Source: Gammaproteobacteria bacterium (GTDB lineage Bacteria; Pseudomonadota; Gammaproteobacteria; SURF-13). From it: DNA of 64,000 nucleotides. Positions 5,427 through 46,729 of the stretch are shown piece by piece. Location of the stretch: assembly GCA_016195665.1 (NCBI GenBank), contig JACPZD010000035.1, forward strand, positions 1 through 64,000, read 5' to 3'. A model generated the notes under the pieces. That model was given only the letters and a program-made list of their open reading frames with translations, searched no databases and had not been told where the DNA came from. The translations under genes and the position numbers were made by a program. How positions within the stretch are numbered: the stretch's first letter is position 1; every line of letters begins with the position of its first letter.

Positions 5427-5876
5427 ATGCCGGCCATCGAACGCACCCTCTTCATCCGGGCGAAGCCCGAGGCGGTATTCGACCTCATCGCGCGCGTCGA
5501 GGACTTTTCCCGGTACAGCCGTATCATCCGGGAGGTCCGCGGAATCGGGCCCGATACCTATCACTGGATCATCCGCGTGGCCGGCATCGAGCTCGATTGG
5601 GATTCCGTGGTGACCGAGGCGCGGCGCCCGCACCGATTCACCTGGCGCTCGGTCCGGGGCATCGAGAACGGCGGCACCTTCGACCTCAAGCCCGCCCGCG
5701 GCGGCACGGAGGTTTGCTTTACGATGGAATATCGTCTGGCCAGCCCCATCCTGGAGAGGATCATCGACAACATCGCCGCGCCCATCATGCGCCGTTTCGC
5801 GACGGAAATCCTGGAGCAGGTGCGCCGGCGCCTCGAGTCTGCGCCCGGGCGCGCGGCCGGTACGCCCGCTCAGTAA
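5427..5876 (+). CDS. SRPBCC (START-like) family protein
   Basis: The 149-residue protein begins MPAIERTLFIRAKPEAVFDLIARVEDF, the usual opening of the SRPBCC ligand-binding fold (polyketide cyclase, coenzyme Q-binding and RatA-like proteins), and continues with the alternating strands and the long C-terminal helix of that fold. Such proteins bind hydrophobic ligands; the ligand here is unknown. I chose ATG 5427 because residues upstream in the longer frame do not match the fold. It is the only gene in the left half transcribed rightward from the FNR-type promoter, and its end overlaps the minus-strand chimera by seven bases. Confidence 0.7.
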   Translation: MPAIERTLFIRAKPEAVFDLIARVEDFSRYSRIIREVRGIGPDTYHWIIRVAGIELDWDSVVTEARRPHRFTWRSVRGIENGGTFDLKPARGGTEVCFTMEYRLASPILERIIDNIAAPIMRRFATEILEQVRRRLESAPGRAAGTPAQ

Positions 5877-6232
5877 AGCGTCACCTGCTCCGCGAGAATA
5901 AGCGGCGTCACGCGCTCGATGCCGGCGAGGCGCACGTCCACGAGCGCCGCGATCCGGCGCTTGAGTCCCTCCGTGAGACCGCCCTTGACGCGCACCTCGA
6001 GCGCGGCCAGCTCGGGCTCGTCGATCGGCCGGCCGATGTTGGAGAGCAACTGCACGCCGACCTCTTCGACCGCGTCGAAGGTCTCGTGCACCTCGCGCGC
6101 GATGAGCGTGGAGAGCACGTTGTAGAGCTTGCCGTCGGCGACCTGGCGCTGGCTAGCCTGCGCGCCCGCCAGAAACAGCAGGGCGACGACCCACAGGCCA
6201 CGCCGGGAATTTACACGGAACAGTTTGGTCAT
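5870..6232 (-). pseudogene. Chimera: signal-peptide-like N-terminus joined to the C-terminus of an archaeal-type SAM synthetase
   Basis: Residues about 1-30 look like a secretory leader (basic start, hydrophobic WVVALLFLAGAQA). From ADGKLYNVLSTLIAREV onward, including VQLLSNIGRPIDEP, the sequence resembles the last ~85 residues of the archaeal-type methionine adenosyltransferase family (about 400 residues when whole, cytosolic). A secreted leader on a C-terminal piece of a cytosolic enzyme makes no catalytic sense, so this is best read as a recombination product. The start at 6232 is set by AAAGGAGG eight bases upstream. It may still be translated. Confidence 0.6.
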
Positions 6233-6289
6233 GGCGACGTCCTCCTTTGCGGGTTTCACGATGGGCCGGCGGGGCTGCGGCGCTGCATG

Positions 6290-10404: not shown

Positions 10405-12095
10405 GAGTTCTCCTTCAAATTTTTCCTGGACGGAATCCCCGGCTGCTGCGGGGACGCCGCCAGAGCATCGCTGACGATGGTCTGTGCTTCCGCCAGGATG
10501 CTGCGCAGATGATCCGCTCCACGGAAGCTCTCCGCATAGATCTTATAGATGTCTTCGGTGCCTGAGGGACGCGCAGCGAACCAGCCACTTTCGGTAATCA
10601 CCTTCAACCCGCCGATGGGCGCGCCGTTGCCGGGCGCATGGCTGAGGATGGCCTGGATTTTTTCGCCAGCCAGGTCTGTTGATCGAACCTGCTGCGGCGA
10701 GAGTTTTGACAGTATCTCTTTTTGCGCCGGAGTGGCGGGCGCCTCGACCCGGGCGTAGGCAGACTCGCCGAATTCGCGCGTCAGCTCGCGGTAGATCTCG
10801 CCGGGATCGCGGCCCATCCGCGCAGTGATTTCCGCGGAGAGCAAAGCCGGGACGATTCCGTCTTTGTCCGTCGTCCAGACGGCGCCGTCAAGGCGCAGGA
10901 AGGATGCTCCCGCGCTCTCTTCGCCGCCGAAGCCAAGCGAACCGTCGAGCAGGCCGCCGACGAACCACTTGAAGCCGACCGGCACCTCGTAGAGCTTCCG
11001 TCCGAGCTTCGCGGTCACGTGATCGATCATCTGGCTGCTCACGACGGTTTTTCCCACCGCCGCTTCCGTGCGCCACTTTGGCCGATGCTGGAACAGATAG
11101 TGGATGGCGACGGAAAGATAGCGATTGGGTGGGAGCAAGCCCGTGCTCCGGGTAACGATCCCGTGCCGGTCGTGGTCGGTGTCGCAGGCGAAGGCGATGT
11201 CGAAGCGGTCCTTCAGGCCGATCAAATTCTGCATGGCATAGGACGAAGACGGGTCCATGCGAATGCGGCCGTCCCAATCGACCGTCATGAACCGGAAGGT
11301 CGGATCGACGACTTCGTTCACAACCGTGAGATTCAAACCATAGCGCCCGGCAATCGCGGCCCAGTAATGGACGCCTGCGCCACCGAGCGGATCGACGCCC
11401 ATGCCGATGTTGGCGCCTCGGATCGCCTCCATATCGATCACTTTGTCGAGATCACTCACGTAAGCGTTGAGATAGTCGTGCCGGTGCGTCGTGGCGGCGC
11501 GCAACGCCTTTTCGAAAGGCATTCTTTTCACGCCCTGGAGGCCGTCTTTCAGAAACTCGTTGGCCTTGGCTTCGATCCAGCCGGTGACGCCGGTATCCGC
11601 CGGCCCGCCGTTGGGCGGGTTGTACTTGAAACCGCCATTGTCGGGCGGGTTGTGCGACGGCGTGATAACAATGCCGTCCGCCAGTCCTTTATCGCGTCCG
11701 CGGTTATAAGTGAGTATCGCGTGAGAAATCACGGGGGTGGGCGTGTATTCGTCGTTCTCGGCGAGCATGACTTCCACACCGTTGGCTGCCAACACTTCGA
11801 GCGCACTGGCAAACGCCGGAACGGAAAGCGCGTGCGTGTCGATACCCAGAAACAGCGGGCCATCGATACCCTGCTGTTTGCGGTACAGGCAAATTGCCTG
11901 GCCGATGGCGAGCACATGCCCTTCGTTGAAGGTCTTCTCGAACGAGGAACCGCGATGTCCCGATGTGCCGAACGCGACCCGTTGCGTGGGCGCCGAGAAG
12001 TCAGGCATGTCGGTATAGTAGGCCTTCACCAGTTTTGGGATATTGGCCAGCATCGCCGACGGGGCGGGTTTCCCCGCCAAAGGATTTACTTTCAT
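10401..12095 (-). CDS. pgm: Phosphoglucomutase, alpha-D-glucose-phosphate specific
   Basis: The protein interconverts glucose-1-phosphate and glucose-6-phosphate. The active-site serine loop [16 protein letters not shown], the metal-binding DTDHDRHG and the sugar-binding [11 protein letters not shown] are all present in the expected order, followed by the phosphate-binding [14 protein letters not shown] near the C-terminus. Length (564 residues from this start) fits the family. ATG 12095 is preferred over the longer frame because it overlaps the phosphoketolase stop as ATGA. It links glycogen breakdown to the pentose and phosphoketolase routes. Confidence 0.92.
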
Positions 12096-14485
12096 TTGCG
12101 CGCGGGGCCTGTCTTCCCCGTTTCCCTGGCACCCCATTTCCAATCCCGGATTTCCGGCATGTCCTCACCGTATTGCCGGATGTAGCGCTGGTGGTCGATC
12201 AGCTTGTCTCGAATGATTTGGGTGAGATAAGCAGCGCGCGGGACCAAACTCGACACCCGATCGACGACGTCTTTGACTAAATGAAAGCGGTCGATGTCAT
12301 TGCGCACCGCCATGTCGAAGGGCGTGGTGGTGGTTCCTTCTTCCTTGTACCCACGAACGTGCAGGTTGTGATGGTTGGTTCGCCGATACGTCAGCTGATG
12401 GATCAGCGAAGGATATCCGTGGTAGGCGAAGACGATGGGTTTGTCCTTGGTGAACAGGACATCGAAGTCCTTGTCGCTCAAGCCCTGAGGATGCTCACTC
12501 TGTGGCTGCAGCGCCATCAAATCCACCACATTGATGACGCGGATCTTAAGCTCCGGGAAATGCTGCCGCAGCATCTCCACTGCGGCCAGCGTCTCCAGGG
12601 TGGGCACATCGCCGGCGCAGGCCATCACCACATCGGGCTCGCTGCCCTCGTCGTTGCTTGCCCATTTCCAGATGCCGAGCCCGGCGGTGCAGTGTTTGAC
12701 TGCCGACTCCATGTCCAGCCATTGCGGCGACGGGTGTTTGCCGGCAACGATGACATTGACGTAGTGGCGGCTGCGCAGGCAGTGATCGGTCACCGTCAGC
12801 AGGGTATTGGCATCAGGCGGCAGATACACGCGGATGATGTCCGCCTTCTTGTTCGCCGCCAAATCGATGAAGCCGGGGTCCTGGTGAGTGAAGCCGTTGT
12901 GATCCTGACGCCACACGTGCGAAGACAGCAGGTAGTTCAGGGAAGCAATGGGCCGCCGCCACGGAATCTGGCGGGTCACATCCAGCCACTTGGCGTGCTG
13001 GTTGAACATCGAATCTATGATGTGAATGAACGCTTCGTAACTTGAGAAAAAGCCGTGCCGTCCGGTCAGGAGGTAACCTTCGAGCCAACCTTCGCACTGA
13101 TGCTCGCTCAACATCTCCATCACCCGGCCGTCGGACGCGATGTGATCGTCACCGGGGATGATTTCCGCGGTCGAGCAACGGTTCGTTACCTCGAATAATG
13201 CGCCCCAGCGGTTCGAGGCGGTTTCATCCGGGCTGAACACGCGGAAGTTGCGTGCGTCGGCGTTGAGCTTGAACACGTCGCGGATGAACTGACCCTGCAC
13301 GCTCGTCGCTTCGGCTTCCACGCCGCCGGGCTTCGCCACCCTGACCGCGTAGTCGCGGAAGTCCGGCATTTTCAGATCCCGAAGCAGTAGCCCGCCATTA
13401 GCATGAGGATTCGCTCCCATTCGCCGCTCGCCCTTCGGCGCCAGTTCAGCCAGTTCCGCAAGGAGCCTGCCATTCTTGTCGAATAATTCCCGGGGCCGGT
13501 AACTCTTCATCCACTGTTCGAGAATTTTCAGGTGCCTGGGCTTGGTCGCAAGTTGCGCAACCGGCACCTGGTGGGCGCGAAATGTTCCTTCGACCGGCTT
13601 GCCATCGACCACGCCGGGACCCGTCCAGCCCTTCGGCGAGCGCAGGATGATCATCGGCCAGCGCGGTCGTTGCTTGAACCCGTTCTTTCGGGCGTCGCGC
13701 TGGATGTGTTGAATACCGGCCACGATAGTGTCGAGTGTGCCCGCCATGAGCTGGTGCATCGCTTTCGGGTCGTCACCCTCGACGAAATAGGGGGTGTAAC
13801 CGTAGCCACGGAAGAGCGCTTCAAGCTCGTCGCGGGAAATGCGGGCGAGCACCGTGGGGCCGGCAATCTTGTAGCCGTTCAAGTGCAGGATGGGAAGTAC
13901 GGCGCCGTCGTGCACCGGATTGAGGAATTTGTTCGAGTGCCAACTGGTCGCCAGCGGGCCGGTTTCCGCCTCGCCATCGCCCACGACACAGGCAACCAGC
14001 AAGTCGGGATTGTCGAACGCCGCGCCATACGCGTGCGCCAGCGAATAGCCGAGTTCGCCGCCTTCGTTGATTGAGCCCGGGGTTTCCGGGGCCACGTGAC
14101 TGGGTATGCCCCCGGGAAAAGAAAACTGCGTAAACAGCCTCTTCATACCTTGTTCGTCTTGGGAGATATGCGGGTACAACTCGCTGTAGGCGCCCTCCAG
14201 ATACGTATTGGCCACCAGGGCCGGTCCGCCGTGTCCCGGCCCGGTGACATAGAGCATGTTGAGGTCATACTGCTTGATGATCCGGTTGAGATGCACGTAG
14301 ATGAAATTCAACCCCGGCGTGGTACCCCAATGGCCCAGTAGCCGCGGCTTTATGTGCTCCAGCGTCAACGGCTTTTTGAGCAGCGGATTGTCATACAGGT
14401 AAATCTGGCCCACAGACAGGTAGTTGGCGGCCCGCCAGTAGGCGTTCATCTTGCGTAACACTTCCGGGGTCAGAGGCTTATTCAT
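12092..14485 (-). CDS. xfp: Xylulose-5-phosphate/fructose-6-phosphate phosphoketolase
   Basis: This 797-residue thiamine-diphosphate enzyme splits xylulose-5-P (or fructose-6-P) with phosphate to acetyl phosphate plus glyceraldehyde-3-P (or erythrose-4-P). [18 protein letters not shown] near residue 80 and the TPP-binding [20 protein letters not shown] near 165-190 are diagnostic; [11 protein letters not shown] and [12 protein letters not shown] lie in the second half. The start follows AAAGGAG. It heads the overlapping xfp-pgm-glgP-ackA' -MFS unit. With acetate kinase reduced to a stub, the acetyl phosphate must be used by an enzyme encoded elsewhere. Confidence 0.95.
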
Positions 14486-14518: not shown

Positions 14519-14653
14519 TCATTTGGTAAACCGGGGCGGGAATACGATTGCCTGTATCACAAACATGACCAGGCTGCACTCGGTGAACATCAGCGCGATC
14601 TGGTATGGGGTCAAGCCGAGTTCCTGCTTGCCGCGCAGTGCAAGGTCCGTCAC
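14519..14653 (-). pseudogene. MFS transporter fragment
   Basis: A 44-residue frame, opened by a GTG that overlaps the P-type ATPase stop, reads LALRGKQELGLTPYQIALMF then TECSLVMFVIQ. This matches one loop and helix of the intact MFS gene at 6426-7634 (LALQGQQVLNLGPREIGWMF, AECSLVMILVQ). The rest is gone and the frame ends at TGA 14519. It is the scar of a paralogous exporter that followed the ATPase gene. Confidence 0.65.
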
Positions 14654-16737
14654 GCCGGCACCTGCGCCGCAGCGGTCGCTGCTGCCGCTCCGCCAGGCTG
14701 ACGGATGCCCGCCAGCTTGGTGCGCTTCAGCATCAGCGCATTGATCGCCACGATGAGGGTGCTGCCGGACATTGACAGCGCCGCGACCTCCGGACTCAGT
14801 ACGAAGGGGTACAGGATGCCCGCGGCGAGCGGAAAGGCGATCACGTTGTAGCCCACCGCCCACCAAAGATTCTGGTGCATCTTTCGTAACGTTGCGCGCG
14901 ACAGCTCTATGGCGGCGACGATGTCATACGGGTCGCTCTTCATCAACACCACGTCGGCGCTTTCCATCGCGACGTCGGTGCCGGCGCCGATGGCAAAGCC
15001 GACATCAGCCTGGGTCAGCGCCGGCGCGTCGTTGACGCCATCGCCCACCATCCCGACCTTCTTCCCCGTGGCCTGCAACTCCTTCACCTTCTCGGCCTTC
15101 TGGCCGGGCAGCACGTCGGCCAGCACGCTGTCGATGCCGAGTTCCGCGGCGATGCGCTTGGCCGTGCCGATGTTGTCGCCGGTCAACATCACCACCTCGA
15201 TGCCCCGATGGCGCAGTTTTGCCGCGGCTGCCTTGGCGGTGGGTCTTATCGCATCGGCGATGGCGATGAGGCCGACCACGCGACCGTTCCGGGCCACGTG
15301 GACAACGGTTCGGCCGTCACCCTGCAGGCGAGCGGCTTCGGCCTCCAAAGGACCGAGTGCAAGCTTTTGTGTATTCATCAGCAACCGGTTGCCGAGGAAC
15401 ACCGTCCCGCCGGCGGTCTCGGCGCGCGCGCCCATGCCGTCGATGCTTTCGAATCCGGTCGGCGCCGCGACGGTGAGGTGCGCCGCCCGGCGCAGGATGG
15501 CCTGGGCCAGCGGATGGTCGGACCCCTGTTCGACGGCTGCCGCGGCGGTCAGCAGCACGTCCTCGGTGATCCCGTCCGCCGTCACGATCTCCACCACCTC
15601 CGGCTGGCCGATGGTGAGCGTACCGGTTTTGTCGAAAATGATGACATTGAGTCTGGTGGCGTCTTCCAGCGCCGAGGCGTTCTTGAACAGAATGCCGTTC
15701 ATTGCGCCGAGGCCCGTCCCCACCATCACCGCCATGGGCGTGGCTAGTCCCAACGCATCCGGGCAGGCGATCACGAAGACCGTGATGGTAAGCGTCAACG
15801 CAAACAGCAGCGGCTGTCCGATCCACCAGAACCACACTGCAAAGGTCGCAAGACCGACGACGATCGCCGCGATCACCAGCCATTGCGCGGCCTTGTCCGC
15901 CAGGAGTTGCGCCGGCGCTTTCGAGTTCTGCGCCTCCTGCACCAGTTTCACGATCTGCGCCAGCGCCGTGTCGGCCCCGACCTTCATCGCCTTATAGCGA
16001 AAACTGCCGCTCTTGTTGATGGTCGCGCCAATCACCGTGGCGCCCGGGCCCTTCTTGACCGGCATCGACTCGCCGGTGAGCATGGATTCGTCGACCAGCG
16101 ATTCGCCCGTCTCCACCGTGCCGTCGACCGGAATCTTGTTGCCCGGCCGGATCACGACAATCTCGCCCGCCGCCACCTCCGCAGTCGGCACTTCAACCTC
16201 GACGCCATTGCGGACAACAGAGGCCTTCGCCGGGGCGAGGTCCATCAGCGCTGTAATGGCCGCCGAGGCGCCCGCACGGGCACGCATTTCCAGCCAGTGG
16301 CCGAGCAGGATGAAAACCAGCAGCACGGCGGAGGCTTCGAAGAACTGCGCGCTCTCGAAGAAGAAGGTAGCGCCGACGCTGAAGAGATACCCGGTCCCAA
16401 CGCTCAAGACGATCAGCACCGCCATGTTCAGGGTGCCGGTCCTGAGCGCGCGCCAGGCGGCGACGACAAACGGCCAACTCGGATAGAGAATCGCGGCGCT
16501 TGCCAGGAAGAACAGCCACAGGTTGAGCGCCAGACCGAATGGCGGAGCGGGCGCTGCGAAGAGGTCTCCCATTGGTGCGTAGACAAAGACCGGCACGGTG
16601 AAGAACAGGCAGATCCAGAAACGGTTGCGCATGTCGCGGACCATGGCCGGCAGGTCCTTGCCGCCATGGCCCATCTCATGCGCCATATCCGCCGACATGG
16701 CGGGCTGCGCGCCCGCTTCAATAACGCTCGTCTTCAT
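14650..16737 (-). CDS. P1B-type heavy-metal ATPase with CPD membrane motif
   Basis: The 695-residue protein has the full P1B plan: transmembrane helices, TGES actuator loop, DKTGTLT phosphorylation site (Asp near residue 370), [10 protein letters not shown] with the HP motif, MLTGDN and GDGVNDAPA. It has no N-terminal HMA domain but a short His/Met-rich tail (MAHEMGHGG), like CopB. The membrane metal motif reads [11 protein letters not shown], that is CPD near residue 325, where CopA has CPC and CopB has CPH. The transported ion is therefore uncertain. It is followed by an MFS relic and the phosphoketolase operon, and a cysteine-less HMA protein lies nearby. Confidence 0.85.
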
Positions 16738-23104: not shown

Positions 23105-24487
23105 TCACAGCAGGAACCAGACGAGCAGGAAGACGCTGTTGTTGTCGCTGGCGTCGCGGCCGAAGCCGTCGTAGTTGTCGCCGGCCCCGTTGAAGCGCGT
23201 GTACCCGGTGTAGCGCAGCGCGAACTTCGCGTGCTGCACCACGGGCATCCAGTCCACGTCGGCGAGGTAGTTCAGCTCCACGATCCAGCCGCGGCTGTCG
23301 GGACGGCCGTTGATGCTGCCCGTGACCGGCGTGCCGCTGTTGTAGCGCAGGTCGTCCGCGTCGCCCTGGGTGTCGAAGTACTGCAGGATGCCGGCATAGG
23401 TCCCGCGATACAGATAATGGACGTCGGCGCGGAAGGTCTTCAGGACCGCCGACGGATTCGAGGCCAGCCCGCCGGCGAAGCTCGCGTTCCATTCCTGCCT
23501 TTCGCGTATCCAGGTCGCGGCTGCCGAGAACACGTGGTCGCCCGCGATGTACTGGTACTGCCCGTCCAGCGCGACATCGCGGAAGCGGTCGGCGCCGAGG
23601 CCGGGCTCGTCGGCCTCGGCGTCGATCTTGGCCACCAGGCCGTACGTGCCGACGGCGAAACTGTGCGGCCCCGTTTCCCGCTGCAGGGCCAGGCGCCAGT
23701 ACGGCGCGGTCCCGCGCACGACGTTCTCCACCGTGACGCCCGCTGCTAGCGGGCGGAACAGGCTCGTGTTCGCCCGGCGATAGACGGCGAGCTCGGCATA
23801 GAGCAGCTGGTTCCACAAACCGTAGACGCCGACGCCGCTCACCTGGCTCGCCAAGCGCATGTCGACCACGGTGCTGGCGGCGGGCATCACCGATACCGAA
23901 CCGGTGTGCGGGAACGACCACGCGGGCGTGCTGTTGTAGATGTCGGACAGCGTCGGATTGTTGTTCAGGGTGACGCCGTAGAGCAGCTTTCCTCCTCCCA
24001 GCGTCGCACTGCCGGCATAGCGCGCATCGAACATCTCCATGGCCCATTGCCGCTCCACACCATCGTAGCTGTACTGCACCAGCGCGCCCGACCGGTCGGT
24101 GATCCTGCCGCCGTAGTAGAGACCCGCGGCCTGGACGAGGAGGTCCCGGTCGCGCGGGAAATCTTCGTCCGTGGCGCCGCCGGTGCCGGTGCTCCGCGTG
24201 GACGTCCGCGAGAGCTGGAGCAGCGCCGCGATGGGTACCTTGTCGAAAAACGGGGCGTCGTCCGGCTTGGGGCTGCTCTTGCTGTAGCCGCCGAGCTTGA
24301 ACTGCCGGCCATCCGCATTGAGCATGGGATAGACCGTATGGCAGTCGCCGCACTCCTCGCCCGTCTGGCGCGCCATGCTCGGCACCGCCGATGCACCGCT
24401 CGAGTAAAGAAGCGTCAGCAGCGGCAGCGCAAGCAGCGCCGCGATCCATGTCACCGGTGATGCAAATCTTGCACTCGGCTCATACAT
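23105..24487 (-). CDS. Cyc2-like outer-membrane protein: monoheme c motif fused to a beta-barrel
   Basis: From ATG 24487 (AAGGAG upstream) the protein has 460 residues: a signal peptide to about residue 34, then PSMARQTGEECGDCHTVYP with one heme-c motif CGDCH (Cys46, Cys49, His50), then about 400 residues of alternating amphipathic strands rich in Tyr, Trp and Gly as in porins, with long polar loops. A heme at the mouth of a barrel is the plan of Cyc2, the outer-membrane iron oxidase, which it matches in size and layout. A cytochrome c gene follows upstream in the same direction. Function in electron uptake is inference; it could also be a metal-related porin. The last residues are WFLL, not the usual terminal F. 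Confidence 0.6.
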   Translation of the reverse strand: MYEPSARFASPVTWIAALLALPLLTLLYSSGASAVPSMARQTGEECGDCHTVYPMLNADGRQFKLGGYSKSSPKPDDAPFFDKVPIAALLQLSRTSTRSTGTGGATDEDFPRDRDLLVQAAGLYYGGRITDRSGALVQYSYDGVERQWAMEMFDARYAGSATLGGGKLLYGVTLNNNPTLSDIYNSTPAWSFPHTGSVSVMPAASTVVDMRLASQVSGVGVYGLWNQLLYAELAVYRRANTSLFRPLAAGVTVENVVRGTAPYWRLALQRETGPHSFAVGTYGLVAKIDAEADEPGLGADRFRDVALDGQYQYIAGDHVFSAAATWIRERQEWNASFAGGLASNPSAVLKTFRADVHYLYRGTYAGILQYFDTQGDADDLRYNSGTPVTGSINGRPDSRGWIVELNYLADVDWMPVVQHAKFALRYTGYTRFNGAGDNYDGFGRDASDNNSVFLLVWFLL

Positions 24488-24556
24488 ATCGATCTCCTTC
24501 TCCATCAGGAATGGACTAATTTGGAATCCAGCGTTCCGCCACCACGTCCCCATGGC

Positions 24557-25084
24557 TCACCGTGTACCGTTCTTTGACGGAACACGCCGATCCAGCGCGT
24601 CGTAATCCGCGGCTTTCATGTTCGGCGACGTCCTCATGAACGCCACCACGTCCCAGATATCCGGGTCGTTGAGGGATGAGCCCCAGGCGGGCATGCCGGT
24701 GAACCGGATGCCGTTCCTGGTCACCCAGAACAGTTCCGCGTCGGTCATGTCTTCCACCAGCTCGGCCAGCGCGGGCGCTTCCGGATTGAGCCCCTTCGTC
24801 ATCATCGTCGCCGGCCGGCCGGGCGGGGTGTGGCACATGGCGCACGCCTCGCGGAAAATGCGAAACCCGTTTTCCACCTGTTCCGCCCCGCCCGACGCTG
24901 GCGCCTGAATGTCGCGCGCATGGCGTCTTATGGACGCTTCGCGCGTGGTAATCAGCACCCAGCGCAGGGGCGCCGCGTCGGTGACCGTTGCGGCCACGTT
25001 GAAGACGCCCGAGTAAATTACCGCGGCTGCCCCGAGCACGCCGAGCACGATGAAGACTCCCAATGTAACGAGGACAGATTTCAT
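24557..25084 (-). CDS. Membrane-anchored class I cytochrome c
   Basis: The start at 25084 follows GGGAGAAAG. The 175-residue protein has an uncleaved-looking N-terminal membrane segment (residues 3-25), a heme-c site CAMCH at 81-85 and a likely distal methionine in FTGMPAWG near 130, with the closing helix DIWDVVAFMRTSP. It faces the periplasm as a monoheme electron carrier. It lies between the heme-porin gene and the VKOR-type gene, all on one strand, so it is the natural partner to carry electrons from the outer-membrane protein inward. Confidence 0.85.
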   Translation of the reverse strand: MKSVLVTLGVFIVLGVLGAAAVIYSGVFNVAATVTDAAPLRWVLITTREASIRRHARDIQAPASGGAEQVENGFRIFREACAMCHTPPGRPATMMTKGLNPEAPALAELVEDMTDAELFWVTRNGIRFTGMPAWGSSLNDPDIWDVVAFMRTSPNMKAADYDALDRRVPSKNGTR

Positions 25085-25148: not shown

Positions 25149-26732
25149 TTAAACGACATATCGGTCCCAACCCGCATACGAATCCTTGATCAGCCCGCGC
25201 GGGATCGAGAGCGCGATCAGCAGCGCCCCGCCGATGACGCCGTTCCAGGCCGCGAGCGGCGAGCCCGCGCCGTCGAGCAGCCACGGCGCCGCGATCAGCC
25301 AGGCGCCGAACGCGACGTTGATGAAGCGCGCCGCGCGCATGACCTCGGCGAGCGCCATGATCGAGAACACCACCACCAGCGAGCCGACCAGGTGATCGCT
25401 GTCGGCCATGTCGCCCGAGTTGCCGAAGCTGAGGCGCGTGAACATGAACGAGATGCCGATCGCGACGCTCACCAGCAGCATCCAGGGGAAGCTTATGCCG
25501 CGCCCGGCTTCCACGGTCATCTCGCGCACCGTTCCGAGCAGCCCCTTGGAGGTGTCGTCGGCGCCGCCCTCCATCGCGTCGCCCATCCAGAAGGTGCGCC
25601 AGAACGGCTTGCCCTTGCGGCGCGCCCAAAGCAGGAACTGACCCATCGCCACGAACTCGTCGAGCTGGTACGGGATCATCACCGTCATGGCGAGCGCTGC
25701 GACGAGGCACAGCGTGCACCAGGTGCCGATCACGATCGGCTGGATGATGATGAAGTAGATGCTCACCACGCCGAGTGGCACGATCAGGATGGTGATCCCG
25801 AGCACCATCCACGGCATGGTGCGCCAGCGGTCCTTGCCACCCATCCAGGTCATCGCCAGCTCGAGCATGTAGACGATGGCGCCGAGCGCCCCGTCGGGGA
25901 TCAGCCAGGCCTTGGACACGCTCGAGGTGATGATCGTCTCGGTGCCGTTCATCATGCCCTTCATCTCGCCGCTGCCGGCGAAGAACGGCTCCCACACCGT
26001 ATCGATATGGCCGAGTTGATAGGCCCCGAGGACGCGCGCGATGAAAAACCCGATCAGCGCGAGCACGGCGATCGGCATGCGCTGCAGCCAGCTCGCCGGC
26101 GTATACGCCCACCCCGGCGGGACGTCGGGCTTGCCCATCATGCCCTCCATGCTCATGCCCGGCATCATCGGCACCAGCACGGAGAACGCGATCACCAGCG
26201 AGCCGATCAGCGTGTCGTTGGCGTAGGCCTCGGGCAGCGGCGTCCAGAACACCAGCGGCGCGAACAGCAGCCAGAAGCCGACCAAGGCGTTGGCCCACTG
26301 CGCCCACGGGTAGCGGCGCGACGAATTGGCGGACAGCAGGCTGAAGACGATTACCAGCACGCCGCTCACGACATCGCTCCAGGTCACCGCCAGGTTGCGG
26401 AACTCGAACGACGGCAGCCCGCGTTCGGCCATCACCCGCAACTGGTTGGCGTCGGGGACGAAGTCGCTCAGGTAACCGAGCGTGAACGGGCTGGTCAGCA
26501 GCCAGAAGCCGAGCATCAGGTTGAGGTAGTGCGGCCAGAGCAGCTTGCGATGGTCCTCGACCATCATGTCGCCGTGCTCCCCCGCCGCGCCGCGCGGCAC
26601 CAGCGCCATGCCGCACTTGGGGCAGTTGCCCGGTTCGCGGCTCGCCACCTCGGGGTGCATCGGGCAGGTGTACTCGACCGCCTGCCCGGGCGGCGTCATG
26701 TCGCCATGACCGGCATTAGGGTGCTCATGCAT
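25149..26732 (-). CDS. Polytopic membrane protein: HMBD metal module, SPW repeats and VKOR-like domain
   Basis: From ATG 26732 the protein has 527 residues. Residues 21-47 are a heavy-metal-binding module (YTCPMHPEV, CPKCGMALV). Several SPW-type helix pairs follow (LGFWLLTSPFTLGY, VGFWLLFAPLVFW) and another at the C-terminus (FGAWLIAAPWLL). The middle has the membrane CxxC WCTLCLV (Cys339, Cys342) typical of vitamin K epoxide reductase-like quinone/thiol oxidoreductases. It may couple thiol oxidation to metal handling in the membrane. The start overlaps the end of the upstream epimerase-HMBD gene by eight bases, so translation is coupled. The N-terminal extension in the longer frame is a shadow of that gene. 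Confidence 0.75.
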   Translation of the reverse strand: MHEHPNAGHGDMTPPGQAVEYTCPMHPEVASREPGNCPKCGMALVPRGAAGEHGDMMVEDHRKLLWPHYLNLMLGFWLLTSPFTLGYLSDFVPDANQLRVMAERGLPSFEFRNLAVTWSDVVSGVLVIVFSLLSANSSRRYPWAQWANALVGFWLLFAPLVFWTPLPEAYANDTLIGSLVIAFSVLVPMMPGMSMEGMMGKPDVPPGWAYTPASWLQRMPIAVLALIGFFIARVLGAYQLGHIDTVWEPFFAGSGEMKGMMNGTETIITSSVSKAWLIPDGALGAIVYMLELAMTWMGGKDRWRTMPWMVLGITILIVPLGVVSIYFIIIQPIVIGTWCTLCLVAALAMTVMIPYQLDEFVAMGQFLLWARRKGKPFWRTFWMGDAMEGGADDTSKGLLGTVREMTVEAGRGISFPWMLLVSVAIGISFMFTRLSFGNSGDMADSDHLVGSLVVVFSIMALAEVMRAARFINVAFGAWLIAAPWLLDGAGSPLAAWNGVIGGALLIALSIPRGLIKDSYAGWDRYVV

Positions 26733-28137
26733 GGCCTTCCCCCGGAATCTGGCGCAGCTCGAGCGGCATGCCACACTTGGGGCAGCGGCCCGGTTCGCCG
26801 CTCGCCACCTCGGGATGCATCGGGCAGGTGCACGCGAGCGCCTCCGCCGGCAGCGTCGTGGGTTCCAGGGCCAGGCCGCAGCGCGGGCAGTTTCCGGGCG
26901 TAGACTGGCCGACCTCCGGGTGCATGGGACAAACATGCACGAGCCGGCCCGGCGCGGCGGCCAGCGTACCCGCGCCGTGCGCGTGTACATGCCCCGACGC
27001 GGGCGCGGGCTCGGCCGCGCGTGCGGCGGCCGGGGCGTGCGCCGCCGCCTGCTTCTCGCGCTCCGCCTGCTTCTTCAAAGACGATGGCGGCTCGAGGCCG
27101 TGTTCGCGGTACCAGCCGATGGGATCGGCTTCCAGCGCCGCGACCATCTTCGGCATCGTCTGTCGCAACGAGCGCTTCGGATGCCAATCGAGAAGCGTGC
27201 GGGCACGCGTGATGTCGAGGGCGTAGTGGTCGTTGGCCCGGTCGATCATCCACGGCTTGATGAACTGCTCCGGGCCGGGCAGGTGGTCCTGAATCCAGGC
27301 GCCCACCTTCGCGATCAGCCCGGGTACGCTTTGGGTCTCCGTGGACTTCTTGTGCAGCAGGCGCATGAACGTGTGCTGCAGCTCGTCGTAGCTCAGCGTC
27401 TCCGGCTCGCCGATGAGGATCGCCGTCTCCGGCGGCAGTTGCGCGCGGCGCTCGATGGCGCGCTCGATCGCGTCGACCACGTCGTCCAGGTGGACGTAGG
27501 CCTGGCCGTGCGAGGTCTCGCCGGAATAAAGATGGCCGGCGAGCTGCCCCTCGTAGATGCGCTGTATCTGGTGCGCGAGCGGTGGCGAGTGGCAGACGTC
27601 GTCGTAGACGCCGGCGAAGCGCAGGATCACGGCGGGAATCGCGCCGCGCTCCGCCCGGATGAGCGCCTCGGTGCGCACCTTCGACTCCGGGTAGGCCCAG
27701 GTCGGCCCGAGCGGCCAGTCCTCGGTGATGAACTGCCCCGGCTCGCCGGGCGCATGCACAAGCATGGTGCTCGAGAAGATGAACTGCTCGACCTCGAAGC
27801 CCGCGCGCAGCCCGCGCAACAGGCGTCGCGTGCCCTCGACCGTGATCTCGTCGTATTTCGGGCTCGGCTTGCCGAGGAAGTCGTAGTAGGCGGCCAGGTG
27901 CACCACGGTGGCGATGTGCGTGCCGTGGTGCTCGCGCAGGAGGCGCAGTCCTTGGCGTACGCTGTCATCGGAAGCGATATCGACCGGCATGCGCACGCAG
28001 TCGGACGGCGCCGGAGTGGGCGCGTTGCGGTCGAGGCCCACGACATCGCTGAAGCGCCCGGTCAGTCGCCGCATCACCGCGCTGCCGATTCGTCCGTTGC
28101 AGCCGGTGATCAGGATAATGTTTCTTTCTGGTTTCAT
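26725..28137 (-). CDS. NAD-dependent epimerase/dehydratase fused to two heavy-metal-binding modules
   Basis: Residues 1-330 are an extended short-chain dehydrogenase: NAD motif TGCNGRIG at 11-18, DxxD region, catalytic YPESK. A linker of Ala, Lys and His (about 355-400, with SGHVHAHGAG) leads to two tandem HMBD modules, each with CPMHPEV and CPRCGLAL or CPKCGMPL (about 401-428 and 436-463). I know of no enzyme of this type with such a tail. The same module opens the next, overlapping gene. Either metal binding controls the enzyme or the modules place it in the metal-handling complex. The sugar or other substrate is unknown. Confidence 0.8.
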   Translation of the reverse strand: MKPERNIILITGCNGRIGSAVMRRLTGRFSDVVGLDRNAPTPAPSDCVRMPVDIASDDSVRQGLRLLREHHGTHIATVVHLAAYYDFLGKPSPKYDEITVEGTRRLLRGLRAGFEVEQFIFSSTMLVHAPGEPGQFITEDWPLGPTWAYPESKVRTEALIRAERGAIPAVILRFAGVYDDVCHSPPLAHQIQRIYEGQLAGHLYSGETSHGQAYVHLDDVVDAIERAIERRAQLPPETAILIGEPETLSYDELQHTFMRLLHKKSTETQSVPGLIAKVGAWIQDHLPGPEQFIKPWMIDRANDHYALDITRARTLLDWHPKRSLRQTMPKMVAALEADPIGWYREHGLEPPSSLKKQAEREKQAAAHAPAAARAAEPAPASGHVHAHGAGTLAAAPGRLVHVCPMHPEVGQSTPGNCPRCGLALEPTTLPAEALACTCPMHPEVASGEPGRCPKCGMPLELRQIPGEGHA

Positions 28138-28475
28138 GGATGTAGCTCCCCTAAGTTAGTAAGAACGCCTAACAAAATGAGAGGGTGGCGTAGGGTGCGT
28201 CCCACCTGTTTGTCTTTGATAGTGACCTTGCGGATCCACTGGGCGTCGGTCGCCGGCCGTCCGTGGCCGTGGACGCCGTTCTCCACGAAGCAGGCCTCGA
28301 CACAGGCGGTGCAGCCGTCCACGCACTGGTTGACATCGATCAGCAGCCCCCAGCGGTTCAGGCTACTCGCGGCCTCTTCGGGGGAGCGCGCCCGGGTGAG
28401 CTCGATCAGGCGCAGGCCGGGACCGGTTGCGGCGGCCGCGGTCAGGTTCAGGAAATCGCGTCGGTTCAGGTTCAT
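28134..28475 (-). pseudogene. Tat-exported 4Fe-4S ferredoxin subunit, truncated
   Basis: The frame starts MNLNRRDFLNLTAAAAT, a twin-arginine leader, then RWGLLIDVNQCVDGCTACVEACFVENGV, the first cluster site of DmsB/TtrB-like electron-transfer subunits, and DAQWIRKVTIKD. The whole protein should have about 250 residues and three or four cluster sites. Here it ends after 113 residues with a short unrelated tail and runs into the epimerase start. It is a deletion remnant of a periplasmic oxidoreductase subunit. Confidence 0.6.
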
Positions 28476-28739
28476 GGTGTTACCTCTTTGTCTGATAGCG
28501 CCTTCAGGCGTGCGCGGAACACCGTCTCGTCGAGTCCGCCAGTGTACTCGAGCCCGCCGTCGATCACGATGCCGGGCGAGGACAGGACGCGGTATTTCTG
28601 CAATATCTCCGGCTGCTGCGTCACGTCGAGGTACGTCACCTTCAGGTCCGGGAAGTCCGGCTGCACCTTCTCGATCACCTTACTTGGCTTTGGCGCACTG
28701 CACGCAGTTCGGCACGGTGAGGAAGATCACGTCGATCAT
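28472..28739 (-). pseudogene. Small thioredoxin-like protein with one-base frameshift
   Basis: ATG 28739 opens MIDVIFLTVPNCVQCAKAK, with the redox site CVQC, and stops at TAA 28680. One base later in another frame the fold continues VIEKVQPDFPDLKVTYLDVT, then ILQKYRVLSSPGIVIDGG and ends at 28472. Removing the extra base at 28682 restores AAG AAG GTG and an 88-residue thioredoxin/glutaredoxin-like protein. Its start overlaps the HMA gene's stop as ATGA and its end overlaps the ferredoxin relic. It is either a decayed gene, a sequencing error, or less likely a recoded one. Confidence 0.75.
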
Positions 28740-28957
28740 GCGCCCTCCTTGAGCCGGTAGCCCAGCCCTTCGAGCGCCTTGTTCATCTCCGCCGGGCCGA
28801 TCTGGGCGTCGTCGTACTCGACCTCCGCGCTGCGCGTGTCGTAGTCCGCATGCGCGAATTTCACCCCCTGCACGGCCTTGAGCATCATGCCGGTCGAGAC
28901 GGCGCAGGCGCCGCAGTGCATGCCCTCCACCCGGAACATCTTCCGTACGATGGTCAT
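28736..28957 (-). CDS. HMA-domain metallochaperone (CopZ/MerP-like)
   Basis: The 73-residue protein is a single HMA domain with the metal site GMHCGACAV (two cysteines) and the usual second half (SAEVEYDDAQIG, EMNKALEGLGYRL). It should bind one soft metal ion, copper being the most likely, and pass it on. It lies between ccdA and a thioredoxin-like gene, an arrangement that suggests use in periplasmic metal or thiol chemistry. GGAGG lies upstream. Confidence 0.88.
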   Translation of the reverse strand: MTIVRKMFRVEGMHCGACAVSTGMMLKAVQGVKFAHADYDTRSAEVEYDDAQIGPAEMNKALEGLGYRLKEGA

Positions 28958-33468: not shown

Positions 33469-33915
33469 TCAATCTTCCATTGCTATCGCTTCGATAAGGT
33501 GGCACACGGCTTTCCCGTCCGGTACGCCATCGGGCATCTTCGCCCAAGCGCGTAGCGCACGCTCCATGCGGCGTTGCAGACTCAGCATCTCCTCCAGCTG
33601 CTGGCGGTTATCGGCGATGCGCTGCTCGATGATTTCGCGCACGCGCGGGCACGGCGACTTACCGCGCTCCGCCTCCTGAATAATGACCCCGATCTCGCGC
33701 AGGGTGTAACCGAGCGCCTTGGCCTGAAGGATGAACCGAAGCCGCTTGAGGTGCGCCTCGGCGAACAACTTGTAGCCGCTCGCCGGATCGCGCGCCGGCC
33801 GCAGCAGGCCGATGCGCGTGTAGTAGCGCACGACGTGCACCGGCACCTGCGCCTGGCGCGCCAGGCCGTTTGCCGTGGTCACCGCGCCAGCGGATTTGCT
33901 GCGCGCGTGTTTCAT
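33469..33915 (-). CDS. MerR-family metal-responsive regulator
   Basis: From ATG 33915 the protein has 148 residues: a winged-helix DNA-binding part (TTANGLARQAQVPVHVVRYY, TRIGLLRPARDPASGYKLF), a long dimerisation helix and a C-terminal end with Cys89 (KSPCPRVRE) and Cys138 (AVCHLIE). Two cysteines at about these places form the ion site in the heavy-metal MerR group (CadR/PbrR/ZntR-like). A promoter with a 20-base spacer lies upstream on the same strand, so self-regulation is likely. Which metal it senses cannot be told. Confidence 0.82.
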   Translation of the reverse strand: MKHARSKSAGAVTTANGLARQAQVPVHVVRYYTRIGLLRPARDPASGYKLFAEAHLKRLRFILQAKALGYTLREIGVIIQEAERGKSPCPRVREIIEQRIADNRQQLEEMLSLQRRMERALRAWAKMPDGVPDGKAVCHLIEAIAMED

Positions 33916-34106
33916 GCGCCGCCTCGCCTGAACCGGACGCGCTCGTCTTTCGCGGCGGCGCTTTCCGCTTTCATCTCCATCATGCAAACAGGGGCCAGCA
34001 TGCTTCGTCTCCTCCGGGTATCCGGCGCAACAATTGTTCGATCACGGACCGAGGCTTTCCACGAACCGGCCGCGCGGCATCCTCGGATGCATGAGTGCAT
34101 GTAAGC

Positions 34107-44428: not shown

Positions 44429-46729
44429 TTAGCGGTTAGAGAGCCTCAAGCGCTTTAGCAGTGCCGAATTCACGATCACCGACAGCGAACTCAATGCCAT
44501 CGCCGCAGCCGCGATAATCGGGTTCAAAAAACCCAAGGCCGCCACCGGGATACCGATGGTGTTATAGATGAAGGCCCAGAACAGGTTCTGCTTGATCTTG
44601 CGCATAGTGGCGCGCGACAGACGTATGCTCGCCACTACGTCGCGCACGTCGTCCTTGATCAGGACGATGCCGCCGGTCTCCTTGGCCACATCGGAGCCGG
44701 AGCCGAGGGCGATGCCGATCTCGGCGACCGCCAGCGCGGGCGCGTCGTTGACGCCGTCGCCCACCATGGCGACCGCCTTGCCCTGTTTCTGTAAATCCTG
44801 AATGACTTTAGCCTTGTCGGAGGGCAACACTTCGGCGATGACATGCTTGATGCCCAGTTCCCGGGCGATGGCTTCGGCGGTGCGACGGTTGTCGCCGGTA
44901 AGCATGATGACTTCCACGTTTTCCTTCATGAGTTCGGCGATAGCGTCCTTAGCCTCGGGCTTGAGCGTGTCGGCCACAGCCACGATGCCGGCGAGGGCGC
45001 CATCAAGACCGACCAGCATTGCGGTCTTCCCTTGGGCTTCCAGCCGCGCCATGATTTCTTCCGCCAGCTTAGGGTCAATGCCTTCCCGCTCGAACAGTCG
45101 GCGGTTGCCGAGAAGCGCGGCCCTGCCATCGACGCTGCCGCGGATGCCGTGGCCGGGAATGGCTTCGAAGCCCTCCACCTTCGGCAACACGAGTTCGCGG
45201 TGTTTCGCGGCACGTACGATCGCTTCGCCGAGGGGATGCTCCGAGCCGGCCTCCACCGCGGCCGCGGCGCGCAGGATCTCTTCCTCCGGCTGGCTATCGA
45301 GGATAATGATATCGGTGACGTTGGGCTCGCCGCGGGTGAGTGTCCCGGTCTTGTCGAACACCACCGTGGTGAGCTTTTCCGCGCGCTCCAGCACTTCGGC
45401 GCCGCGGATCAGGATGCCGGCTTCGGCCCCCTTGCCTACGCCCACCATGAGCGCCGCCGGCGTGGCGACGCCCAGCGCGCACGGGCAGGAAATGATCAGC
45501 ACCGCGATGAAGGCGAGCAGTCCCTGCGGGAAATTGCCGGCCGCCCACCAGCCGAAAAAGGCCAGGAAAGCGACCGCCACCACCGCCGGGACGAAATACG
45601 CGGTCACTTTGTCGGCGAGGCGCTGCACGGCTGCGGTGCTGGCCTGGGCATCCTCCACCATCTTGATGATCTGGGCCAGCGCCGTCTCGGCCCCCACCCG
45701 CGTCGCCTTGAAGCGGAACAGGCCGGTGCGGTTGAGTGTGCCGCCGATCACAGCAGCGCCCGCCGCCTTTTCCACCGGCATGGACTCGCCGGTGAGCATG
45801 GACTCGTCCACCGAGGAGTTGCCCTCCAGCACCTGGCCGTCGGTGGGAATTTTCTCGCCGGGCCGCACCACCACGGTCTCGTCCACCATCACCGACTCGG
45901 CGGGCACCTCCATCTCGGCGCCGCCGCGGATCACGCAAGCAGTCGCCGGCTTCAGGTCCAGCAGCTTGCGCACCGCCGCCGAGGAGCGCTTCTTGATGAT
46001 CTCCTCCATGTATTTGCCCAGCAGCACGAAGGCGATGATGACGGCGGAGACTTCGAAGTAGACGTCGCGTTCCTCGACCTTGACCGGCAGCACCTCGGGG
46101 AAGAACAGCACCGCGACGCTGTAGACGTACGCGACCGTGGTGCCGAGCGCAATCAGGAAATCCATGTTGATCGAGCGCGTGCGGATCGCCTGCCACGAAC
46201 CCTTGTAGAAACTCCAGCCGCCGATGAACTGCACCGGCGTGACCAGCAGGAACAGCCACATGCCCCAGGTGAACCACGGCAGCGCCGGGATCGGCGCCCA
46301 GGTGACGATGGTGGCGCCGGTGGCCAGCGTCAGAAACGCCCCGGCACGCAGGATGGCGAGCACCAGCACCCCGGTGAGCGCAACCGTGACGCGGGTGCGC
46401 ATGGACTTGAGTTCCTGCTCGGGGGACTCGAAGGTGCGCTGGCAGCCTATACTGCAGAAATAATAGGCTCTTCCGGCGCGTTCGGTCTTGAGCGCGGTAG
46501 CCTTGTCCACCACCATGCCGCAGATCGGGTCTTTGGCCTTGCCCTCAAGAGCGGGGCCAGCGGCGTGCACATGCGTCTTCGTGCCGCCCTGAATGAATTT
46601 TTCAGGCCCGGCTTCGAACTCGTGCAGGCAACGCGCCGAACAAAAATAATAGCTTTGGCCCAGATAAATGAAACGGCCCGCCGCCGTTTTTTCATCTACC
46701 GTCATGCCGCAAACTGGATCGGTTGCCAT
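44429..46729 (-). CDS. copA: Copper-type P1B ATPase with two N-terminal YHS domains
   Basis: The 766-residue protein begins with two YHS domains ([14 protein letters not shown], then [15 protein letters not shown]; and [14 protein letters not shown], then [14 protein letters not shown]) in place of HMA domains. The P1B core follows: TGES loop, membrane motif [11 protein letters not shown] (CPC near 413-415), [19 protein letters not shown] (HP motif), MLTGDN and [14 protein letters not shown] is the monovalent copper/silver export motif. Together with the Met-rich and DUF302 proteins upstream it forms a copper export and tolerance block. AAAGGA precedes the ATG. Confidence 0.92.

Follow-up and report, generated by a model that had tools for sequence, protein, structure and literature searches.

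The window (the 64-kb stretch of DNA analyzed here) encodes a cytochrome-porin, P0001, which by sequence is of the Cyc2 type, and the subclade to which it belongs has copper gene neighborhoods specific to it, a feature that is new. Our leading, although tentative, reading is that the subclade protein is an outer-membrane oxidase recruited to copper handling, which would convert Cu(I) to Cu(II) and pass the electrons to cytochrome c. The gene cyc2 serves as a metagenome marker for iron oxidation; if one branch of the family oxidizes copper, some predicted iron oxidizers have been miscalled. If true, the reading would also describe copper detoxification of a new type, in which the electrons drain into the respiratory chain, and it would allow a direct test of whether Cyc2 homologs have functions besides Fe(II) oxidation, a question raised previously (PMC8406198).

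The cytochrome-porin gene and its surroundings

The features of the window on which the analysis draws are as follows.

14650-16737, minus strand: copper-type P1B ATPase (TIGR01511 599.6 bits, cut-off 397)
23105-24487, minus strand: P0001, Cyc2-type fused cytochrome-porin of 460 residues (translation, barrel model, full-length homology to the L138 Cyc2)
24557-25084, minus strand: monoheme cytochrome c (CAMCH) of 175 residues, apparently N-terminally anchored (PF13442 58.6 bits, PF00034 39.5 bits)
25149-26810, minus strand: HMBD-SPW-VKOR membrane protein (Pfam; 79% identical homolog in L030, tblastn)
26725-28137, minus strand: NAD-dependent epimerase with HMBD (heavy-metal-binding) domains (Pfam; 73% identical homolog in L030, tblastn)
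28736-28957, minus strand: HMA (copper-chaperone-like) domain protein (PF00403 47.8 bits)
33469-33987, minus strand: MerR-family regulator (PF13411 55.9 bits; metal-MerR families below cut-off)
44429-46729, minus strand: YHS-containing copper-type P1B ATPase (TIGR01511 596.4 bits, cut-off 397; PF04945)

The P0001 gene lies about 70 bp from the upstream cytochrome c gene on the same strand. Both start codons follow a purine-rich ribosome-binding site, AAGGAG-N6-ATG for P0001 (24487) and GGGAGAAAGATC-ATG for the cytochrome (25084), and promoter and terminator scans gave nothing beyond chance level. The signal peptide of P0001, judged by eye, spans approximately residues 1-34 and ends in ...SSGASA; in the translation it is followed by VPSMARQTGEECGDCHTVYPML and then by about 390 barrel-like residues. 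The protein has exactly one CxxCH (CGDCH, residues 46-50), embedded in AVPSMARQTGEECGDCHTVYPML with the heme-domain context AVPSMARQT...CGDCHTVYPML, to which a single c-type heme would be attached. Thus, the layout described in the initial annotation (signal peptide, one CxxCH, and a barrel-like part) is present. The same annotation proposed a periplasmic monoheme cytochrome next to the porin. The adjacency and the single heme motif (CAMCH, with Cytochrome_CBB3/Cytochrom_C matches) were borne out; free solubility was not, and the protein is probably membrane anchored, its hydrophobic N-terminal stretch looking like an anchor, while relatives of the porin are accompanied by other c-type cytochromes or high-potential iron-sulfur proteins (HiPIPs).

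P0001 had no match in Pfam, NCBIfam, or the PDB sequences. It is nevertheless a real gene and no chance ORF, because it has two paralogs in its own genome, homologs at about 400 places in one collection scan, spread over many phyla and lifestyles, and a 16-strand model with a pLDDT of 92.6. This AlphaFold2 model, which was computed from an alignment of 78 sequences, reached a pTM of 0.90 and has exactly 16 strands, preceded by short helices in mature residues 1-50 that correspond to the heme domain. The closest PDB folds found by Foldseek were mostly 16-strand porins (OmpT, OmpC, OmpF, Omp32, and PorB). The model thus predicts a 16-strand outer-membrane barrel with an N-terminal heme-domain plug, and the Cyc2 layout is likewise a heme domain with a fused 16-strand porin (PMC8406198). 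The structure prediction called for earlier is thus a confident one, and neither a barrel-less model nor placement in a family of soluble proteins was the outcome.

The surroundings were correctly described as a metal-rich island, with two copper-type P1B ATPases above the TIGR01511 cut-off and with HMBD, HMA, YHS, DsbD-like, and MerR genes. These ATPases, about 6 kb and about 20 kb from P0001, are the copper genes of the window, which counts against a role in copper handling; no HME-RND (cus) genes were found within the 64 kb, and P0001 has no adjacent cusCBA. The window and the cus/cyc2-like locus L030 have the two HMBD-containing neighbors in common, at 73-79%. In the window these neighbors (25149-28137) occupy two overlapping frames, and in L030 they form one 950-aa frame (11577-14429); a frameshift or fission is possible. 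Two short ORFs were also observed: a Tat/4Fe-4S ORF at 28134-28475, whose similarity is limited to the first 100 residues of DsrO and which is probably a gene remnant, and an ORF at 5870-6259, which matches only the last ~80 positions of the AdoMet synthetase model and is likely a remnant as well.

Cyc2 type, partner carriers, and spread

The Cyc2 family has been defined by the motif AxPxFAR[Q/K][T/Y]..CxxCH...PxL and a fused porin (Keffer et al., PMC8406198). P0001 fits this motif at all positions but one (F to M). In the family alignment, the strict form was found in 61 of 114 rows and the relaxed form in 109, and the heme motif is invariant throughout. For length, at least 365 aa together with homology to a Cyc2 was used as the criterion; P0001 has 460 aa and is 31% identical over 457 residues (E = 2e-65) to the Cyc2 of locus L138, which was called a Cyc2 from motif and operon, not from an assay. 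The L138 operon encodes COX1, COX2, CtaA, a UbiA-family (CtaB-like) protein, and a rusticyanin-like protein whose match (137 bits) lies below the cut-off of 146.7. The likeness to Cyc2 that had been suspected therefore extends, as homology, over the full length of a Cyc2 from a rusticyanin-like/cox operon.

When 369 genomes of the class were searched with a profile of the P0001 family, about 30 matches were full length or nearly so, at approximately 280-630 bits, with L138 among them at 410 bits. A separate, weaker set (approximately 36-107 bits) covered mostly the N-terminal region only, and the canonical Cyc2 proteins of a Gallionella and a Sideroxydans metagenome-assembled genome (MAG) (L120 and L121) belong to it; the term canonical is used because those Gallionellaceae iron oxidizers that have cyc2 possess a Cluster 1 copy (PMC10734462). 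In a quick tree of 70 rows, the P0001 family grouped with the L138 Cyc2 with an SH-aLRT of 99, long branches meeting among the outgroups. P0001 probably belongs to Cyc2 Cluster 2, because its homology to L138 runs over the full length and only the heme domain is common to the canonical Gallionellaceae Cyc2. Around three rusticyanin-like loci of genome G221, no Cyc2 was found in the stretches examined.

Among 86 family loci surveyed for partner carriers, a c4-like diheme cytochrome lay directly downstream in about 34-36 (median gap, 38 bp), a monoheme cytochrome lay upstream in 15, and HiPIP genes adjoined some of the others. A c-type cytochrome or HiPIP gene is thus the immediate neighbor of the cyc2-like gene at a large proportion of loci, usually on the same strand and within tens of bases, and this arrangement speaks for a transfer of electrons from the heme-porin to a periplasmic carrier. 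The cytochrome type of the window itself was considered as a family-wide conserved partner and rejected: it stands beside few homologs and is outnumbered by other c-type cytochromes and by HiPIPs. Its homologs were found by tblastn near the subclade members L033, L036, L038, and L041. Subclade members also have, after the cyc2-like gene, a gene for a single-CxxCH membrane protein (L033:10320-11108, L032:2832-3614, and L030:10356-11123, in L030 as two ORFs); this protein has no Pfam or NCBIfam match.

The 2.38-Mb host genome carries three P0001-type copies. P0001 shares 45-47% with its two paralogs, L010 and L011. Gene duplication as the origin of the three was rejected, as they do not form one clade (p-AU = 1e-4): P0001 groups with Zoogloea, Aromatoleum, and L030, L010 with Burkholderiales and relatives, and L011 with a Gallionella MAG. 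Most simply, the copies would have been acquired separately. A fourth, distant Cyc2-like gene (L012, G000:C40:6240-7637; ARQYNLTCVTCHAAFPRLN) has a homolog, L013, in a genome of the same family. The host also has COX1 genes and two long RuBisCO large-subunit genes; one of the latter (L241, G000:C11:6898-7821) contains an in-frame TAA, and the second, on C37, is open.

Relatives of P0001 are present in Gallionella and Sideroxydans MAGs and on plasmids, where a c-type cytochrome gene nearly always adjoins. Plasmids NC_009469.1 (L023) and CP084173.1 (L024), of Acidiphilium cryptum and Acidithiobacillus ferrooxidans, carry the same segment of cyc2-like and cytochrome c genes with the same neighbors, which from these sequences is a case of recent plasmid-borne sharing. 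On pACMV3 of A. multivorum (L025), the cyc2-like gene is annotated as two ORFs. Two MAGs, one proteobacterial (L030) and one of Sideroxydans (L031), have 98% identical cusA genes next to their cyc2-like genes, which suggests recent movement of the module.

Copper genes around one subclade

A locus was counted as copper linked when an HME-RND, P1B-ATPase, multicopper oxidase, CopB, or DUF411 gene lay within the available flanks (~9 kb). By this count, copper or heavy-metal genes are near 12 of 15 subclade loci and 9 of the 85 other family loci (p = 9e-8). The controls gave 3 of 40, made up of 3 of 20 other Cyc2 loci and none of 20 random loci. After near-duplicates were merged, the subclade count was 9 of 12, against the same 9 of 85 (p = 6e-6) and the same control loci (p = 1e-5). 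A copper link of the family as a whole was rejected, its excess over the controls not being significant (21/100 versus 3/40; p = 0.08). The rest of the family showed no excess of copper genes over the controls (p = 0.75), and the link therefore belongs to the subclade.

The gene order is often close. In L030, L031, L033, L172, and L174, the cyc2-like gene is directly behind cusA on the same strand, and cusCBA-like genes are near it in L038, L047, and L058. The pump of L030 passes TIGR00914 and scored 1288 bits to Escherichia coli CusA versus 570 bits to ZneA. With the CusA Met-triad positions located by motif, the Cu(I)/Ag(I) triad was kept in 10 complete linked pumps (L030, L033, L038, L047, L051, L058, L172, L174, L181, and L188) and in the host's own pump on contig C36. 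It was absent from the pumps of L039, L040, L045, and L081; those linked in L039 and L040 have a Czc-like look, which counts against copper. P0001 itself is placed in the subclade because of the tree and shared residues, not because of a cus neighbor.

A second lineage, L011/L062, shows a copper link independently. In the Gallionella locus L062, the order is CopL/CzcI-like gene, cyc2-like gene, copA (TIGR01480 928 bits), and copB (PF05275 281 bits). Its sister is the host's own paralog L011, which has Met-rich loops (DDMAMMMGD), a CopL/CzcI-like gene upstream, and, on its contig, a CusA gene at a distance of approximately 12 kb.

The subclade is also marked by residues of its own. Met152, Met210, His194, His357, and Trp148 occur in 79-100% of subclade members versus 0-15% elsewhere, Met152 and Met210 being found in the L011/L062 lineage as well. 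The side chain of Met152 probably faces the pore, because positions 152, 154, and 156 lie on one face of a predicted strand and Asp154 and Arg156 are conserved. Runs of at least three Met were present in 6 of 23 copper-linked rows versus 2 of 77 others (p = 0.002, kinship ignored); a relatedness-aware test of Met richness against copper linkage, with too few independent pairs, was not significant. Against copper, P0001 contains just 7 Met residues, and the position of Met389 is Thr.

In the literature searched (full text, with subscription papers mostly outside), we found no description of a cytochrome-porin with copper resistance and efflux, nor of a link between Cyc2 and CusA or between Cyc2 and copper resistance with a multicopper oxidase. 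Passages of one paper (PMC5566968) deal with Cyc2 and PcoAB separately.

Candidate substrates and comparison with known systems

The copper neighborhoods of the subclade make Cu(I) a concrete candidate substrate, and we consider it more likely than Fe(II) for this group. The 16-strand outer-membrane barrel would be plugged at its periplasmic mouth by one c-type heme, which would take one electron from a dissolved metal ion that has entered the pore. The anchored monoheme cytochrome c, whose gene lies just upstream, would receive this electron next and relay it to a terminal oxidase. Whether met at the surface of the cell or pumped out by Cus/P1B systems, Cu(I) would in this way be turned into Cu(II), which is less toxic, and the respiratory chain would take up the electrons. 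Oxidation of the cuprous ion by A. ferrooxidans was reported in the older literature, and the Cu(II)/Cu(I) potential is approximately +150 mV. The potential of Cyc2 PV-1, at 208 mV (PMC8406198), lies above this value, and such a heme would therefore accept electrons from Cu(I). The broader proposal, that a whole Cyc2 heme-porin subfamily in cus/cop islands consists of outer-membrane cuprous oxidases that feed Cu(I) electrons into the cytochrome c pool and so link respiration to copper detoxification and possibly to energy gain, is more doubtful.

The chief competitor, also held with less than even confidence, is an ordinary Cyc2 iron oxidase in an autotrophic host. Electrons from Fe(II) that enters the pore would reach a heme-copper oxidase by way of the heme and the anchored cytochrome c, and the nearby metal-resistance genes would reflect no more than a metal-rich habitat and a mobile island. 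Every Cyc2 tested to date oxidizes Fe(II), representatives of Clusters 1, 2, and 3 included (PMC8406198), which speaks for iron and against copper, and the full-length homolog of P0001 sits in a rusticyanin-like/cox operon. The RuBisCO and COX1 genes of the host and the relatives in Gallionella and Sideroxydans MAGs point the same way, although the former are equally compatible with sulfur oxidation and the MAGs with a P0001-type gene have a canonical Cyc2 too. Against iron, copper genes accompany the subclade far above their rate at other Cyc2 genes, at random loci, and at the remaining family loci, and habitat alone does not readily account for a gene that lies directly behind cusA or between copL-like and copA genes.

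The variety of partners (c4-like diheme and monoheme cytochromes, HiPIPs), the many phyla and lifestyles, and the proposal of Mn(II) for other Cyc2 proteins (PMC9040806) would suit a general porin for electron uptake or release that uses neither Fe(II) nor Cu(I), with another metal ion or a reduced ligand as the donor, or with outward flow to Cu(II) or another acceptor. This is unlikely, as the neighbors of the subclade indicate copper and none indicates another substrate. A porin for metal passage or sensing, with a structural heme that gives no electrons to the chain, is very improbable: the protein has only one heme, no relative has a solved structure in the PDB search, and several family members are without an adjacent cytochrome, but a carrier gene stands immediately beside the porin in a large share of loci and the heme motif never varies in the family alignment. 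Oxidation of Cu(I) remains the reading we prefer for the subclade.

P0001 resembles Cyc2 Cluster 2 (the A. ferrooxidans rus-operon type) in its signal peptide, the single CxxCH in AxPxxARQ..CxxCHxxxPxL, and the 16-strand barrel, and its homology to the Cyc2 of the rusticyanin-like/cox operon includes the C-terminal YDGxGRxASDNN. In contrast to Cluster 2, no rusticyanin or cox genes are nearby and the putative partner is an anchored monoheme cytochrome; moreover, its subclade adjoins cus/cop/P1B genes and has additional conserved Met, His, and Trp residues. With Cluster 1 (Gallionellaceae and Zetaproteobacteria), it has the heme-domain motif in common (profile match probability 98.9 over 55 columns), whereas its barrel has no detectable sequence similarity and BLASTP covers 36 residues. 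CusCBA efflux and PcoAB/CopAB resistance, whose genes neighbor the subclade members and the L062 lineage, are not known to contain a heme-porin. The proposed outcome, Cu(I) to Cu(II), is also that of the periplasmic multicopper oxidases CueO and PcoA (CopA); these pass the electrons to O2 on the enzyme, whereas a P0001-type heme would pass them to cytochrome c.
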